Origin: Bacteroidales bacterium
Lineage (GTDB): Bacteria > Bacteroidota > Bacteroidia > Bacteroidales > UBA932
Direction of reading: 5' to 3'
Assembly: GCA_017447265.1 (NCBI GenBank)
Contig: JAFSOA010000001.1
Coordinates: 1 to 64,000 of the forward strand
Length of the DNA: 64,000 nt
The notes below the pieces were generated by a model. It saw only the letters and a list, made by a program, of their open reading frames with translations, was not told the DNA's origin and made no database searches. The translations under genes and the position numbers were made by a program. This document shows positions 26,207-44,885 of this stretch, in pieces (the first letter of the stretch is position 1; every line of letters begins with the position of its first letter).

Positions 26207-27304
26207 TTATTTCGGTGCAATCCTGTAGAGGATGGCCGCCACGACGGCGAAGACGATGTTGGGCACCCACATGGCCAGAGCGGGTGCCATGATGCCCTTG
26301 AGCACGAACATCTGGCTGAAGCGCATGAACAGGATGTAGGCGAAGCTGATGGCCAGGCCGATGCCGATGTTCAGGCCCAGGCCGCCGCGCTTCTTGCGTG
26401 AAGACAGCGACACGGCGATGATGGTCAGCACAAAGGCCGAGAACGGCATCGCGATGCGGTTGTTCTTCTCGATGAGCGAGCGCTTGACCTCGGAATCGCC
26501 GCGCATCTTCTGCACCCGGATCAGTTCGTTCAGGTCCTGTCCGGAGAGCGACTCCACGGAATTCTTGCGGCGGTAGAAATCGGCCAGGGTCAGCTGGATC
26601 ACCGTGTCGAGCTGTTTGCCGGTCCGCACCACTTCGGATTCTCCGTAGAAGTCGCGGATGTAGTAGTTGCGCAGCCGCCAGCCCTGGATGGTGCTGTCCC
26701 ACGCCGCCGAGTTGGCGGAGAGCTTCGAGACGATGCGGTTGTTCTCGATGCGCTCCAGGGTGAAGCCGTAGGCCGTGTTGCTTGCGGAGCTGAACTGCCC
26801 GAAATACACGAATTCGCCCGGTGCGATCTGGTAGTGGATGTTGCGCTGGGTGTTGGCCACGATGCTCTGGGGCTTGATGTATTTGTTCTCGAAATCGAGG
26901 CGTTTCTGGTTGGCGGGCGGGATGATGTAGAGGCCCAGCAACAGCGACAGGCCGCAGATGACGGCGGCCGAGAACATGTAGGGAGCCATGATGCGGCGGA
27001 AGCTGATGCCGCCCGACAGCATGGCTACGATCTCGCTGTTCTGCGCCAGTTTCGAAGTGAAGAAGATGGCTGAAATGAAGACGATCAACGGGCTGAAGTT
27101 GTTGACGATCCACGGGATGAAGCCCCCGAAGTAGTCGAAGATGATCTCCTGGATCGGGACGCTCTTCTCTACGAACTTGTCGATTTTCTCGCTCAGGTCG
27201 AAGATGATGACGATGGACACGCCGATCATGATCGTGAAAAAGAAGGTTCCGAGGAACTTCTTCACGATGTACTTGTCGAGAATCTTGATGTTAGACAGGT
27301 CCAT
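26207..27304 (-). CDS. LptF/LptG-family (YjgP/YjgQ) permease
   Basis: Inner-membrane component that, with LptB, extracts lipopolysaccharide for transport to the outer membrane. 365 residues: two helix groups (about 17-110 and 275-360) enclose a periplasmic beta-jellyroll-like region, the LptF/G architecture; the cytosolic helix segment LAQNSEIVAMLSGGISFRRI (about 74) is characteristic. It starts 3 bases after tgt. A second family member lies at 38788-40266, so this pair could form the LptF-LptG heterodimer; which is which is not decided. Confidence 0.85.
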   Translation of the reverse strand: MDLSNIKILDKYIVKKFLGTFFFTIMIGVSIVIIFDLSEKIDKFVEKSVPIQEIIFDYFGGFIPWIVNNFSPLIVFISAIFFTSKLAQNSEIVAMLSGGISFRRIMAPYMFSAAVICGLSLLLGLYIIPPANQKRLDFENKYIKPQSIVANTQRNIHYQIAPGEFVYFGQFSSASNTAYGFTLERIENNRIVSKLSANSAAWDSTIQGWRLRNYYIRDFYGESEVVRTGKQLDTVIQLTLADFYRRKNSVESLSGQDLNELIRVQKMRGDSEVKRSLIEKNNRIAMPFSAFVLTIIAVSLSSRKKRGGLGLNIGIGLAISFAYILFMRFSQMFVLKGIMAPALAMWVPNIVFAVVAAILYRIAPK

Positions 27305-27307
27305 GGG

Positions 27308-28438
27308 CTACAATCGGGTGTCAAGCTTCCGGATGGTCTGCTCCTTCCAGCTGCCGAAGTCTCCCGCTTCGATGTGTTCACGCGCCTGTTCGACCAGATG
27401 CAGGTAGAAGGCCAGGTTGTGCTGGCTGGCGATCTGGGCGGCCAGCATCTCGCCGGCCACGAACAGGTGGCGCAGGTAGGCTTTGGTGTAGCAGTGGTCT
27501 ACAAAAGACGTTCCAGCCGGATCGAGCGGCGAGAAATCGTCGGCCCATTTCTTATTCTTGATGTGGATGATGCCTTCGCTGGTGAAGAGCATGGCGTTGC
27601 GACCGTTGCGGGTGGGCATCACGCAGTCGAACATGTCGACGCCGCGGGCGATGCCTTCCAGCAGGTTGGCGGGGGTGCCCACGCCCATCAGGTAACGGGG
27701 CTTGTCCTGCGGCAGCACGGGATGCAGGAGCTCCAGCATCTCGTACATCTTTTCGGTGGGCTCTCCCACGGCCAGTCCGCCGATGGCGTAGCCTTCGCGC
27801 CGGAAGGCCATCGCGTGCTCGGCAGCCCGCAGGCGCAGGTCCGGATAGACGCAGCCCTGCACGATGGGGAAGAAGGTCTGGCTGTAGCCGTAGAGGGGTT
27901 CGGTCTCGTCGAAATGCCGGATGCAGCGCTCCAGCCAGCGCTGGGTGAGGCCCAGCGATTTCTCGGCGTATCGGTAGTCCGCGTCGCCCGGGCAGCACTC
28001 GTCGAGCGCCATCACGATGTCGGCGCCGATGATGCGTTGGGTGTCAACGTTGTTTTCGGGCGTGAAGATATGCCGCGACCCGTCGATGTGCGACTGGAAG
28101 ATGCAGCCTTCCTCAGAGAGTTTGCGGCTCTGGGCCAGCGAAAAAACCTGGAAGCCGCCGCTGTCGGTCAGGATGGGGCGGTCCCAGGAAGTGAATTTGT
28201 GCAGGCCGCCGGCCCGTCGCAGGATGTCAAGCCCGGGGCGCAGGTAGAGGTGGTAGGTGTTGCCCAGGATGATCTGCGCGTGGATGTCCTCGCGCAAGTC
28301 TTTATGGTACACGCCCTTCACGGAGCCGACCGTGCCGACCGGCATGAAGATGGGGGTCTCGATGGTGCCGTGGTCGGTGGTGATCCGGCCGCGGCGGGCA
28401 CTGGTCATCGGATCCGTGGAAAGTACGTCGAATTTCAT
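27308..28438 (-). CDS. tgt: tRNA-guanine(34) transglycosylase
   Basis: Exchanges guanine-34 for the queuosine precursor in GUN-anticodon tRNAs. TIM-barrel protein of 376 residues with the active-site Asp92 (DSGGFQVFSL), GGLAVGEP (about 220) and the nucleophile region VDMFDCVMPTRNGRNA (about 267). The three cysteines of the usual C-terminal zinc site are absent: Gly309, Ser311 and Asp314 occupy those places, while His340 is kept. queG, which acts in the same pathway, is at 35918. First gene of a three-gene run. Confidence 0.93.
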   Translation of the reverse strand: MKFDVLSTDPMTSARRGRITTDHGTIETPIFMPVGTVGSVKGVYHKDLREDIHAQIILGNTYHLYLRPGLDILRRAGGLHKFTSWDRPILTDSGGFQVFSLAQSRKLSEEGCIFQSHIDGSRHIFTPENNVDTQRIIGADIVMALDECCPGDADYRYAEKSLGLTQRWLERCIRHFDETEPLYGYSQTFFPIVQGCVYPDLRLRAAEHAMAFRREGYAIGGLAVGEPTEKMYEMLELLHPVLPQDKPRYLMGVGTPANLLEGIARGVDMFDCVMPTRNGRNAMLFTSEGIIHIKNKKWADDFSPLDPAGTSFVDHCYTKAYLRHLFVAGEMLAAQIASQHNLAFYLHLVEQAREHIEAGDFGSWKEQTIRKLDTRL

Positions 28439-37833: not shown

Positions 37834-38790
37834 TTATTCAAAGTGATAGCTTTCAGGTTCCCGGAAGCCGCGGAGGAAGTCGGCGACGTCCATGCGTTTC
37901 TTGCCGGAGAGCTGGAGGCTGAGGATGCGGAGCGCCTGCTGGCCGCAGCGGACCTCGATCCAAGACTTGCCGTCGGTGGTCAGCTGGCCGGGCGTACGCG
38001 GGTCGTCGTCGGCACAAGGCACGACGTAACTGTCGTAGAGCTTGATGCCCAGTTGGGTGCCGTCGTCTTTGACGAGCGTGGTCCAGGCGGCCGGGTAGGG
38101 ACTCAGGCCGCGGATGAGCAGGCTGACGCGGCGGGCGCTGGCGGTCCAGTCGATGTGGCAGTTGTCGCGCGTGAGCTTCGGCGCCGGATAGAGGGTCTTG
38201 TTCATGCCCGGGGACTGCTCGTACGGCTTGGTACGGTGGTTCTCCATCGCATCGACCGTCTTGAGCACGAGGTCGGCGCCCATCTTCATGAGCTTGTCGT
38301 GCAGAGCGCCGGCATCTTCGTAGTCCTCGATGGCGCAGTTTTCCTGGAAGAGGATCTTGCCGGTGTCGATCTGCTCGTCGAGCAGGAAGGTCGTGACACC
38401 CGTGAATTTCTCGCCGCGGATAATGGCCCAGTTGATGGGGGCTGCGCCGCGGTACTGCGGCAGCAGCGACGCGTGCAGGTTGAAGGTGCCCATCGACGGC
38501 ATCTGCCACACTTCTTTGGGCAGCATGCGGAAGGCGACCACCACGAAAAGATTGGCTTTCAAGGCGGCCAGTTGTGCGAGGAAGTCCGGATCCCTGAGCT
38601 TTTCGGGCTGCAGCACGGGGATGCCGCGGGCTACGGCGTACTGTTTGACGGCGCTCTCGCGCACGGCCATGCCGCGGCCGGCCGGCTTGTCGACGGCAGT
38701 CACCACGCCGGCCACTTCATAGCCTGCCTGCAGCAGCTTCTCGAGCGGCGCCACGGCGAACTCGGGCGTACCCATGTAGACGATGCGCAC
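37834..38790 (-). CDS. fmt: Methionyl-tRNA formyltransferase (Fmt part of the fusion, possible internal start)
   Basis: Formylates initiator Met-tRNA. Complete 318-residue Fmt: VRIVYMGTPEFAV at the start, the folate-site loop FNLHASLLPQYRGAAPINWAI (conserved Asn-His-Ser/Leu-Pro-Arg-Gly pattern, about residue 108), DTGKIL, and a C-terminal OB domain ending QLSGKKRMDVADFLRG. GTG at 38790 stands exactly where family members begin with Met, so it may be a real initiation codon; it is in frame with the upstream permease. Confidence 0.85.
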   Translation of the reverse strand: MRIVYMGTPEFAVAPLEKLLQAGYEVAGVVTAVDKPAGRGMAVRESAVKQYAVARGIPVLQPEKLRDPDFLAQLAALKANLFVVVAFRMLPKEVWQMPSMGTFNLHASLLPQYRGAAPINWAIIRGEKFTGVTTFLLDEQIDTGKILFQENCAIEDYEDAGALHDKLMKMGADLVLKTVDAMENHRTKPYEQSPGMNKTLYPAPKLTRDNCHIDWTASARRVSLLIRGLSPYPAAWTTLVKDDGTQLGIKLYDSYVVPCADDDPRTPGQLTTDGKSWIEVRCGQQALRILSLQLSGKKRMDVADFLRGFREPESYHFE

Positions 38791-40266
38791 CTTGCCGCCG
38801 CCCCGCCGGAACAAATTGATGAAGCGGTGGTAGCGCTTGGTGATCCACTTGCCGATGCGGCGGAAGAACTCTTTGTAGGTATCCATGTTGAAGAGCGAGG
38901 AGTCCTGGGTGGACTTGCGGGTGAGAAGGATGCTGACCGGCAGGAGGATGGCTGTCGAGATCAGCGTGCCCACCAGAGGCGGGAGCGATCCCTTGGCCAG
39001 CTTGCGGCCGATGATGTCGATGATGTAATAGATGAGGTAGAAGAAGATCGAGATGATGACCGGCGCGCCCAGTCCGCCCTTCCGGATGATGGCGCCCAGC
39101 GGCGCTCCCACGAAGAAGAACAGCAGGCACGAGATCGACAGGGTGAACTTGAGGATCATCTCGATGTTGATGCGGCGGATGATGCCCAGGTCGTATTTCG
39201 TCTCGATGTAGAACTGATTCACCTGTTCCAGTCCCTGCTGCGCCTTGCCGACGGAGGTCTGGTTGACGCGCAGGTGCTGCTGGGGTGTGAAGTCCTGGCT
39301 CAGGCTGTCGACGTAGAGGCAGCCGATGTAGGCCGAATCGGGCCGGAGGGTGTCGAGCTGGTAGAGATAGTGCATGCCCATGACGCTCATGAAGCGCGGT
39401 AGCTGTCGCATGACGACCGTGTCGACGCGCCGCGAGAGGGAGTCGCGGTCGTGGTGCAGCCGCTTCAGGCCGAGGGCCTTGATCTCGTCGCCGTACTGGT
39501 CTTCCGTCGAACGCTCGAAGGTGTAGTTGTCGAGCGAGATGATCATCTGCTGCTCTTCGAAGCGCGAGCGGAGCAGCTCGAGCGTCGTGTCGCGGTAGCT
39601 CATCTGGTTGTTTTCGCTGTAGGAACAGCCGCTGTAGAGGTCGAAGATCAGGTTTTTCTTGTCGGGGGTGATGCGCATGCGGCCGCTGTCGGCCAGGATC
39701 ACATTGTCGCTGTTGCCGCTGTTGCCGGTGTGGTCGTAGATCACCAGATCGTACATCATGTCGGTCTCTTCGTTGCGCTCGGAGATGCGGAGGTTGTAGC
39801 CTTCGATGCCGGCATAGAAGATGCCGGTCGGAATCTTGATCTCGTCCTTGGTGCGTCCGATGTCGGCCTTCAAGGTGTAGACCTTGTTGAAGGCCAGCGG
39901 CACCAGCCGGTCGGCGGCGAAAAAGGCGCCGATGGAGATCAGGACCGAGACGATCATCAGCGGTGCGAGGATGCGCATCAGCGAGACACCGGCCGCTTTC
40001 ATGGCCAGCAGCTCGTTGCGCTCGCCCAGGTTGCCCAGGGTCATGATGGAGGCCAGCAGCGTGGCCAGCGGAATGGCGTTGGGGAAGAGGGTACAGGAAG
40101 CCCATCCCATGAATTCGGCGATGACGCCGAAGCCCAGGCCTTTACCCATCAGCTCGTTCACGAACGAGTAGATGAACTGCATCGACAGTGAGAACACGAC
40201 GATGAGGAAGACCGCCACGAAGGGGCCTATGAAAGTCTTGATGAGGTAGAGGTCGAGCTTTTTCAT
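37834..40266 (-). CDS. LptG-like permease fused in frame to methionyl-tRNA formyltransferase
   Basis: One uninterrupted frame of 810 codons. Residues 1-492 are a YjgP/YjgQ permease: membrane helices at about 12-35, 60-80, 98-125, a large periplasmic domain, then helices at about 385-470 (IEMILKFTLSISCLLFFFVGAPLG) and a basic cytosolic end (KRYHRFINLFRRGGGK). Residues 493-810 are a complete Fmt. No stop codon separates them. Either a real two-domain protein exists, with the enzyme on the cytosolic side of the membrane, or Fmt is also made from the internal GTG at 38790. Starts 3 bases after the alaS stop. A lost stop codon through sequencing error is the main alternative. Confidence 0.75.
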   Translation of the reverse strand: MKKLDLYLIKTFIGPFVAVFLIVVFSLSMQFIYSFVNELMGKGLGFGVIAEFMGWASCTLFPNAIPLATLLASIMTLGNLGERNELLAMKAAGVSLMRILAPLMIVSVLISIGAFFAADRLVPLAFNKVYTLKADIGRTKDEIKIPTGIFYAGIEGYNLRISERNEETDMMYDLVIYDHTGNSGNSDNVILADSGRMRITPDKKNLIFDLYSGCSYSENNQMSYRDTTLELLRSRFEEQQMIISLDNYTFERSTEDQYGDEIKALGLKRLHHDRDSLSRRVDTVVMRQLPRFMSVMGMHYLYQLDTLRPDSAYIGCLYVDSLSQDFTPQQHLRVNQTSVGKAQQGLEQVNQFYIETKYDLGIIRRINIEMILKFTLSISCLLFFFVGAPLGAIIRKGGLGAPVIISIFFYLIYYIIDIIGRKLAKGSLPPLVGTLISTAILLPVSILLTRKSTQDSSLFNMDTYKEFFRRIGKWITKRYHRFINLFRRGGGKVRIVYMGTPEFAVAPLEKLLQAGYEVAGVVTAVDKPAGRGMAVRESAVKQYAVARGIPVLQPEKLRDPDFLAQLAALKANLFVVVAFRMLPKEVWQMPSMGTFNLHASLLPQYRGAAPINWAIIRGEKFTGVTTFLLDEQIDTGKILFQENCAIEDYEDAGALHDKLMKMGADLVLKTVDAMENHRTKPYEQSPGMNKTLYPAPKLTRDNCHIDWTASARRVSLLIRGLSPYPAAWTTLVKDDGTQLGIKLYDSYVVPCADDDPRTPGQLTTDGKSWIEVRCGQQALRILSLQLSGKKRMDVADFLRGFREPESYHFE

Positions 40267-40269
40267 CCA

Positions 40270-42882
<2,613 letters not shown>

Positions 42883-42911
42883 AGGTCTTAACGTAAGTAT
42901 ATAATTTGGCA

Positions 42912-42950
42912 CAAAATTAGTCTTTTTCCGGGTAAATTTCCGTAATTTTG
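42912..42950. promoter_or_regulatory. Divergent -7 boxes for alaS (-) and M23 gene (+)
   Basis: Minus strand TAATTTTG at 42919-42912; plus strand TAATTTTG at 42943-42950. Both match TAnnTTTG; -33 boxes are weak. Confidence 0.5.
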
Positions 42951-42976
42951 CAAAGATATACTGCAGAAATCGGTTC

Positions 42977-43927
42977 ATGTCCCGCCAAATCCGTTATATC
43001 TACAACGAACAGACCCGGGCCTTCGAAGTCGACAGGCTCTCGGCGCGTGCCACCGGCTACAAGACCGGAGCCGTGCTGCTGGGCGGCATCATCTGTTTCC
43101 TGATCTTTTTCTTCGTGTTTGTCCAGCATGGCAACGCCTCGCCCAAGGAGCTCCTCCTGCAGCACAACAACCGCATCCTGGCCGAGCAGATCGGGATGCT
43201 GGAGGGCCGCATCGAGGCGCAGGACGCCGTGCTGCTCGACCTGTCGCTCCGCGACAACCTGGTCTACCGTCCCGTCTTCGGCATGGAAGAGATTCCGGCG
43301 GAGGAGCGGGGTGCCGGCCTGGGCGGTCCGGAGCGCTACGATGTGTTCCTGGGACTTGACAACGGGGAACTGATGAGCCGGGCGGCCCGCCAGGTCGACC
43401 AGCTGACCCGCAAGGCGTATGTGCAGACCCTTTCGTTCGACGAAGTGCGCATCTATTCGAGCCGGGCCGGCGACATGGCTTCCTGCATCCCCTCCATCTA
43501 TCCGGTCAATCCCAAGACCGTCACCATCAGCAGTCCCTTCGGCACGCGCCTCCATCCGGTGCGTCAGACCATCATTTTCCATGAGGGCATCGATCTGGCC
43601 GGACCGGCCGGGCAGCCTGTCTATGCGACGGGCGACGGCGTGGTTGAGTCGACGCAGATCAATTTCTCGGGCTACGGCAACGTGATCGTCATCGACCACG
43701 GCTTCGGCTACAAGACCCGCTACGCTCACCTCAAAGAGATCAAAGTGACGGCCGGGCAGGTGGTGATCCGCGGCGACAAGATCGGTACGCTGGGCAACAG
43801 CGGTCTTTCGACGGGCCCGCACCTGCACTATGAAGTGATCTACCGCGGCACGCAGATCAACCCCTGGAACTACCTGAATCCCGATATATCCCCGGAAGAA
43901 TACAACAAGCAGGCGCGTCATGGCTAA
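42977..43927 (+). CDS. M23-family peptidase (LytM-type), membrane-anchored
   Basis: Predicted peptidoglycan endopeptidase. A short cytosolic N-terminus, one membrane helix (about 29-50), a coiled-coil-like stretch (about 55-95), then a C-terminal LytM domain with the complete site: His202 and Asp206 (HEGID), His251 (RYAHL) and His282/His284 (HLHYEV). 316 residues. It overlaps the next M23 gene by 8 bases, so both are made together; the pair probably works in cell-wall remodelling or division. Confidence 0.88.
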
Positions 43928-44885
43928 ACGATTCGTGTTCGATGAGAAGCGGGGCGCGTTCGTCCCGAAGAAGCCCACGCTGAACAGCGTGCTGGGCGCG
44001 GTGCTGCGCTATGTCTTCGCGGTGGCCTCGGCCGCAGTGGTCTTCTATACGGTCTTCGCGCTGGTTTTCAGCACGGAGCGCGAACGGCTGCTGGAGCAGG
44101 AGCACCAGTTGCTTTCCGAGGAATACGCGACCCTCACGGCCCAGCTCGACCGCATCGAGGGGACGGTGGGAAACCTGCAGGTACGCGACCGGGAGATCTA
44201 CCGGGAACTGTTCGGTGCGGATCCGTCGAACTATTCCATCGAGGCGCAGGATACCCTGCTCCGGCTGGGCGGAGAACTCGAAACGATGCAGGAAAGCGAC
44301 CTGGTGTGGGACACCTACGCGCTCACCAACCGGGTGGAGTCGACCGCCTCGCAGGTCACGCGCTGGCTGGCTGAGATCGACACGCTGCTCGCAGGCGGTT
44401 CCGTCTGTCCCACGGCCATCCCGTCCGTGGTGCCGGTCAAGCCCTTCTCGCCGCTGCAGACCGGCGCGTCGGTGGGCAAGAAAATCACGCCTTTCTACAA
44501 GACCATCCGGGACCACACGGGCATCGACCTGGTGGCGCCGACCGGGACCCTGGTCCGCTGCACGGCAGACGGAAAGGTCAGGAAAGTGGTCAAGAGTTCG
44601 AAAGGCATGGGCAACCAGGTGACGGTCGAGCACCCCGGCGGGCTGCAGACCGTGTATGCGCACCTGAACACCATCAAAGTCACAGAGGGACAGGATATCC
44701 GCCAGGGCGATACGATCGGCACCGTGGGCCAGAGCGGCTCGTGCTTCGCACCCTGCCTGCACTACGAGGTGCTGCGCGGCGGCTTCGTCCAGGAGCCCGT
44801 GAACTATTTCTTCGCGCAACTCGACCCGGCGACCTTCCATGGGATGATGGTCGTCGCCCTGACCACGGGACAGTCGATGGATTGA
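43920..44885 (+). CDS. M23-family protein with altered active site
   Basis: Same build as its upstream neighbour: a membrane helix near 27-50, coiled-coil region (about 52-95) and LytM domain; 321 residues. Zinc ligands His199, Asp203 and His281 and the histidine in YAHL (248) are present, but the first histidine of the HxH motif is Cys279 (CLHYEV). That residue is catalytic in LytM enzymes, so this protein is probably inactive or weak and may act as a regulator or scaffold, as EnvC and NlpD do. Translation likely couples with the first gene. Confidence 0.83.
   Translation: MAKRFVFDEKRGAFVPKKPTLNSVLGAVLRYVFAVASAAVVFYTVFALVFSTERERLLEQEHQLLSEEYATLTAQLDRIEGTVGNLQVRDREIYRELFGADPSNYSIEAQDTLLRLGGELETMQESDLVWDTYALTNRVESTASQVTRWLAEIDTLLAGGSVCPTAIPSVVPVKPFSPLQTGASVGKKITPFYKTIRDHTGIDLVAPTGTLVRCTADGKVRKVVKSSKGMGNQVTVEHPGGLQTVYAHLNTIKVTEGQDIRQGDTIGTVGQSGSCFAPCLHYEVLRGGFVQEPVNYFFAQLDPATFHGMMVVALTTGQSMD

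Follow-up and report, generated by a model that had tools for sequence, protein, structure and literature searches.

A permease joined to methionyl-tRNA formyltransferase in gut and rumen Bacteroidales: a probable membrane-anchored Fmt

The window, as we call the whole 64,000-nucleotide stretch of Bacteroidales DNA analysed here, contains a minus-strand open reading frame (40266-37834, with the first base of its ATG at 40266 and its stop codon at 37836-37834) that encodes 810 amino acids without an internal stop. It begins with a permease of the LptF/LptG family and ends with a complete methionyl-tRNA formyltransferase (Fmt), the two being connected by a basic linker of about 42 residues (Table 1). 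The fusion is shared by certain Bacteroidales of gut and rumen, and the single open frame running from permease into Fmt, which an earlier note on this DNA had described, is borne out. Judged from the sequence, the gene very probably specifies one 810-residue inner-membrane protein, an LptF-type subunit with an Fmt tail. Fmt is generally regarded as a free cytosolic enzyme; here, the sole Fmt detected in the genome is most likely the tail of a permease and lies on the cytoplasmic side of the inner membrane. A single match to the formyltransferase domain PF00551, that of the fused gene, was obtained in the source assembly, which comprises 2.13 Mb in 19 contigs and is 78.66% complete.

Table 1. 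Features of the fused frame and of related genes in the window.
Feature	Position	Strand	Basis or remark
Permease part, residues 1-449	38920..40266	-	PF03739; hydropathy scan
Linker, residues 450-491	38794..38919	-	basic, amphipathic; counterpart of the tail of separate permeases
Complete Fmt part, residues 492-810	37837..38793	-	TIGR00460 above cut-off
GTG, internal start of the earlier note; ordinary Val codon V493	38788..38790	-	not conserved
ATG of the M-G-T-P motif	38773..38775	-	sole start-type codon conserved near the junction
alaS (alanyl-tRNA synthetase), upstream gene	40270..42978	-	by eye
LptG-like permease paralogue, presumed partner of the fused permease	26207..27304	-	PF03739, 249 bits

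Both halves are complete, as the earlier note had held, with PF03739, PF00551, PF02911 and TIGR00460 all scoring above their cut-offs. In the Fmt half, PF00551 covers residues 494-668 (121 bits; cut-off 26.1) and PF02911 residues 697-802 (76.7 bits; cut-off 21.1), and the curated family TIGR00460 (fmt) is matched over residues 494-804 with 248.6 bits against a cut-off of 201.5. Aligned with Escherichia coli Fmt (1fmt), this half scores 202.7 bits over approximately its whole length, an alignment that covers the active-site Asn, His and Asp; the corresponding N596, H598 and D634, which we take to be the Fmt active-site residues, are unchanged in all nine aligned fused proteins. The protein therefore shares with E. 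coli Fmt (1fmt/2fmt) both Pfam domains, the curated-family score and the active-site triad, and differs from it in that its N-terminus runs on into a membrane permease and that the usual start codon is not conserved. A start codon of its own is usual for Fmt but does not decide whether a protein belongs to the family. A formyltransferase fold inside a larger protein is also seen in ArnA, a two-domain enzyme with an Fmt-like formyltransferase; however, ArnA has a sugar nucleotide as its substrate and a soluble partner domain, and the fused protein scores 150.9 bits against the ArnA model NF005998, whose cut-off is 777.

A deformylase was detected in 38 of the 40 genomes of the window's genus, 20 of them with two matches, so the formylation pathway looks intact. 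The two genomes in which the search found none are that of the window (79% complete) and G213, which is closest to it by Fmt; both absences probably reflect incomplete assemblies. Abandonment of formylation, considered because of the missing deformylase in the window's assembly, was rejected in view of the 38 genomes that have the enzyme.

The permease half matches PF03739 over residues 7-450, nearly the whole domain, with 213.6 bits against a cut-off of 27.9, and so belongs to the family. A hydropathy scan, in which overlapping peaks were merged and a weaker peak at 561-579 inside Fmt was left uncounted, gave six hydrophobic regions at residues of about 6-24, 60-78, 99-117, 376-394, 401-419 and 431-449; a large interval separates the third from the fourth. 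LptF and LptG have six transmembrane segments arranged around a periplasmic domain, with the C-terminus in the cytoplasm; this topology and the six hydrophobic regions agree in suggesting that the C-terminus of the fused permease is cytoplasmic as well. Since Fmt is encoded as the tail of a membrane permease, it is probably anchored to the inner membrane.

The window's assembly holds two PF03739 matches, the fused gene and a separate paralogue at 26207-27304, so the partner permease expected in an LptB2FG exporter is present. With the LptF and LptG proteins of the LptB2FG lipopolysaccharide exporter (6s8g, 6mit, 5x5y), the fused permease has in common the PF03739 domain, the existence of a second paralogue and, as far as the merged hydropathy peaks show, six hydrophobic regions; it differs in that its C-terminal tail bears a whole enzyme and that its scores fall under the equivalog cut-offs. 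In NCBIfam, it reaches 123.0 bits for LptF (TIGR04407, cut-off 230) and 101.1 bits for LptG (TIGR04408, cut-off 240), and the paralogue, also under the equivalog cut-offs, reaches 192.8 bits for LptG versus 129.3 for LptF. In single-sequence searches of the PDB, the paralogue is clearly nearer LptG (50.0 versus 32.2 bits), and the fused permease scores 38.0 bits against LptG chains and 32.6 against LptF. A firm naming as LptF or LptG was rejected because NCBIfam favours LptF and the PDB search slightly favours LptG; as the paralogue is nearer LptG, we call the fused half LptF-like by elimination, with moderate confidence. The earlier designation "LptG-like" is thus probably to be replaced by LptF-like, the NCBIfam scores being nearer LptF. 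The paralogue (window 26207-28438) adjoins a gene read by eye as queuine tRNA-ribosyltransferase (tgt), and both permease genes consequently neighbour tRNA-related genes, alaS/fmt in one case and tgt in the other. In genera g20 and g8 (loci L149 and L155), permease homologues with frames of about 630 amino acids end in an extension of about 150-170 residues with no apparent resemblance to Fmt, and permeases of this kind may bear other cytoplasmic tails.

The fusion is widespread in the window's genus. The Fmt half was matched in 37 of the 40 genomes and the permease half in the same 37; 36 of these have both halves in one intact frame of 805-888 amino acids, and in the remaining one (G067) contig edges cut the gene and leave a frame of 684 amino acids that covers the complete permease and the first part of Fmt. 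Among the genus relatives with complete matches, Fmt identity to the window ranges from 97% down to 59%. A stop codon just before 38790 in close relatives would have spoken against the fusion, and none was seen in any matching genus member. The recurrence across these 37 genomes agrees with the earlier argument against random decay. More distant members of the family have separate genes.

In the family, which we take to be UBA932 of GTDB, 61 genomes of 24 other genera were picked from a 199-genome sample. Fmt was matched in 59 of them: 18 in frames of 796-840 amino acids, 39 in frames of 318-389 amino acids and two as fragments. All 18 long frames also hold the permease. Fused genomes amount to one of three in g2, one of one in g3 and in g5, three of three in g6, g15 and g16, five of five in g22 and one of three in g23, and the fusion therefore occurs in nine of the 25 family genera sampled, with the window's genus included. 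Across the 141 genomes of g22, 132 gave 133 Fmt matches, of which 131 are fused, two (G651 and G572) are uninformative because the cut falls within Fmt, and none is separate. Intact frames number 128 (791-996 amino acids), and the permease search gives the same contigs and frame lengths. The other three fused matches are incomplete: in G675 the cut lies in Fmt, and one frame spans the entire permease plus the junction; in G587 the permease is interrupted by an assembly gap, and what remains of it shares a frame with Fmt; and G659 is cut at the contig start, its retained part sharing a frame. In the four longest frames inspected (G625, G644, G170 and G188), the surplus length is accounted for by open frame that precedes the first ATG.

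Outside the family, no fusion was seen among the order members sampled: in an order-wide sample with Fmt matches in 143 of 149 genomes, the 140 matched genomes from outside the family have a longest frame of 392 amino acids. In a phylum-wide sample (Fmt matched in 197 of 198 genomes), the longest Fmt frame among the matches listed, the window's own aside, is 411 amino acids. Of 587 candidates from named records, the best 80 comprise 24 fused loci, 54 separate ones and two without an Fmt match. The fused records include Bacteroidales bacterium RGIG7582 from the omasum of water buffalo and a co-assembly genome from rumen, in both of which the last 320 residues equal those of a genus member, and Candidatus Cryptobacteroides faecigallinarum (L164), which groups among g22 in the tree described below; in the NCBI taxonomy, the genus Cryptobacteroides stands in Bacteroidales incertae sedis. 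Protein databases may already hold records of such fusions, and their annotation may be affected, since a protein of this kind can be named after one half only. In the open-access full-text literature, with subscription papers and preprints outside the scope, we found no report of a permease-Fmt fusion. The phase-variable Fmt of Helicobacter canadensis (PMC2823697) is unrelated to this fusion.

The linker behaves as translated, constrained sequence. Its dN/dS is 0.096 over eight close pairs and 0.163 over 16 genus sequences (L160 and L185 being excluded as duplicates), and its differences by codon position (0.118, 0.100 and 0.334) fall mostly on third positions. A value of 0.91 for the permease stretch over all sequences was discarded, as that stretch had been anchored at the junction without alignment and was out of register. 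In the window, the linker has ten K/R against three D/E in 40 residues and a hydrophobic moment of 0.64, the highest among the 44-residue stretches that were tested. Fused linkers have a median net charge of +5 (range 3 to 11; 37 residues, 69 proteins), and the tails of separate permeases likewise a median of +5 (range -2 to 12; last 28 residues, n=44, duplicates kept). The linker would then be an ordinary cytoplasmic permease tail, perhaps lying on the membrane surface, from which Fmt hangs in the cytoplasm. Together with the conservation of the fusion in two genera and the permease topology expected from known structures and hydropathy, the constrained linker makes the membrane-tethered Fmt raised in the earlier note probable.

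The start codon of separate fmt genes is not preserved at the fused junctions. We compared 69 fused junctions (84 loci minus L178, in which the M-G-T-P motif was not found, and minus 14 duplicates) with 107 separate fmt genes (121 loci minus 14 duplicates). Separate genes start upstream of the M-G-T-P ATG: an in-frame ATG stands 4-25 codons before the motif in 103 of them, with GTG or TTG in the other four; where the nearest in-frame ATG is considered, it lies 6-22 codons ahead, and none of the 107 is without ATG, GTG or TTG in the 40 upstream codons. At the fused junctions, an ATG 4-25 codons before the motif is present in 26 of 69; any of the three start-type codons occurs within 40 upstream codons in 58 and none in 11. 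At the position of the GTG at 38790, the 30 distinct junctions of the window's genus carry ATC in 20 cases and GTG in five, and nine of all 69 fused junctions have GTG there. The ATG of M-G-T-P itself is kept in 69 of 69 distinct fused junctions, and it is the one exception to the finding that no start position is conserved across them. The old fmt start is thus not kept, and full-length translation is the sole route open to all fused genes.

These observations bear on whether a free Fmt might nevertheless be made. Nested translation, in which the ribosome also starts inside the frame, appears highly unlikely. The GTG at 38790, the start-type codons near most junctions and the invariant ATG in M-G-T-P are what such a start could use. 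The GTG, which the earlier note took to mark where Fmt normally begins, is indeed present in the window as an ordinary Val codon, and nested translation from it, as proposed there, is not supported by its occurrence in so few junctions. A start at the M-G-T-P ATG is possible but would be damaging, as it would remove the preceding R-I-V-Y, which is presumably a strand of the Fmt fold, with the M of the motif inside the fold. Also against internal starts stand the junctions without any start-type codon, L034 among them, whose Fmt is 93% identical to the window's; the invariable upstream start of separate genes; and the linker's density of start-type codons, which is lower than in the rest of the frame both for ATG (0.0217 versus 0.0294 per codon) and for ATG, GTG and TTG together (0.0465 versus 0.0614). 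Full translation followed by protease cleavage of the linker, yielding an ordinary permease and a free Fmt, has a somewhat better but still small chance of being right: the linker is basic and, in close relatives, partly Gly-rich, but by eye there is no cleavage motif common to the fused lineages, and linkers differ widely between those outside the window's genus. An assembly or sequencing artefact, or a decaying gene, might be suspected in a draft of this contig number and completeness; however, 37 genus genomes, eight further genera and 24 of the best 80 named-record loci share the fusion, which excludes both for practical purposes. We therefore favour the single anchored polypeptide, and infer that it is translated as one chain, has the proposed topology, keeps both halves active and escapes proteolytic release.

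The neighbourhood of the gene offers a plausible origin. In the window, three bases separate the alaS stop from the permease ATG, and a homologue of alaS was seen at 38 of 42 fused loci and at 16 of 27 loci with adjacent but separate genes, ending in each case less than 200 bases from the permease frame; in two more it ends farther away. Beyond alaS, at 42977-44885, two divergent plus-strand neighbours were read by eye as M23-type peptidases. Of the 39 separate family loci, 20 were fetched, and 17 of these have the permease gene immediately before fmt, the two overlapping or separated by a short gap; in L141, L144 and L157 the permease stop falls inside fmt, 11 bases ahead of the codons for GTP in the motif. 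At the order level, a permease is present in one of 28 loci with 1.5 kb of flank (L095). As the permease gene mostly abuts or overlaps fmt in separate relatives, stop loss or a frame change could join the two. In L180, L182, L183, L184 and L186, the separate genes share a frame and the permease stop is the only stop between them, one step from fusion. In g23, fused L135 and separate L153 differ by a short deletion and substitutions at the stop site, L135 being one draft assembly that could be in error.

A tree of permease plus Fmt (83 rows; 82 in a second) was built from 17 of the 30 genus g1 loci and from L122-L159, L161-L190, L213, L215 and L219; L152, L156, L178, L149 and L155 were dropped, L186 was also left out of the 82-row tree and the AU test, and most separate named loci (L191-L239) lie outside it, their permease not being adjacent. 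On this tree the fused state needs five changes, three of them forced by well-supported branches, counts that give no direction of gain or loss. Two large fused groups, g1+g3+g5+g15 and g16+g22, contain no separate rows; the group that includes g6 also has separate rows from g2, g12 and g18 as well as a fused one from g2, and g23 is mixed. In an AU test on 57 fused and 25 separate rows, a tree with all fused rows on one side of a single branch was rejected (p 1.87e-50), a result that fits several gains or one gain with later splits.

In the scheme that we consider best, an alaS-lptF-fmt cluster whose last two genes already abutted or overlapped would have given rise to the fusion when the permease stop was lost, either alone or together with a change of frame, and this perhaps more than once. 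The resulting polypeptide would be an LptF-type exporter subunit whose cytoplasmic tail continues through a short basic helix into Fmt; the separate LptG-like protein would be the partner of its permease part, and formylation of initiator Met-tRNA would be carried out by its Fmt part at the cytoplasmic side of the inner membrane. Compatible with this scheme, and rather more probable than its opposite, is the view that crowding of genes produced the fusion as a harmless by-product, that it persists because neither half has lost its function, and that the tether brings no benefit: the genes abut or overlap in separate relatives, and five state changes are what would be expected if joining is easy. 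Against it, no separate gene was seen in two genera despite wide divergence, with Fmt identity falling to 59%, which hints at selection for staying fused. That Fmt is purposely moored to the lipopolysaccharide exporter, tying initiator-tRNA formylation, and through it the start of translation, to the inner membrane or to the state of envelope export, and that this arrangement evolved several times in one family and was kept in whole genera, we regard as an improbable extension. The fused genera would offer a natural test of coupling between translation start and envelope building. If the anchored Fmt is real, the bulk of initiator-tRNA formylation can be done from the membrane, in whole genera of gut and rumen Bacteroidales.
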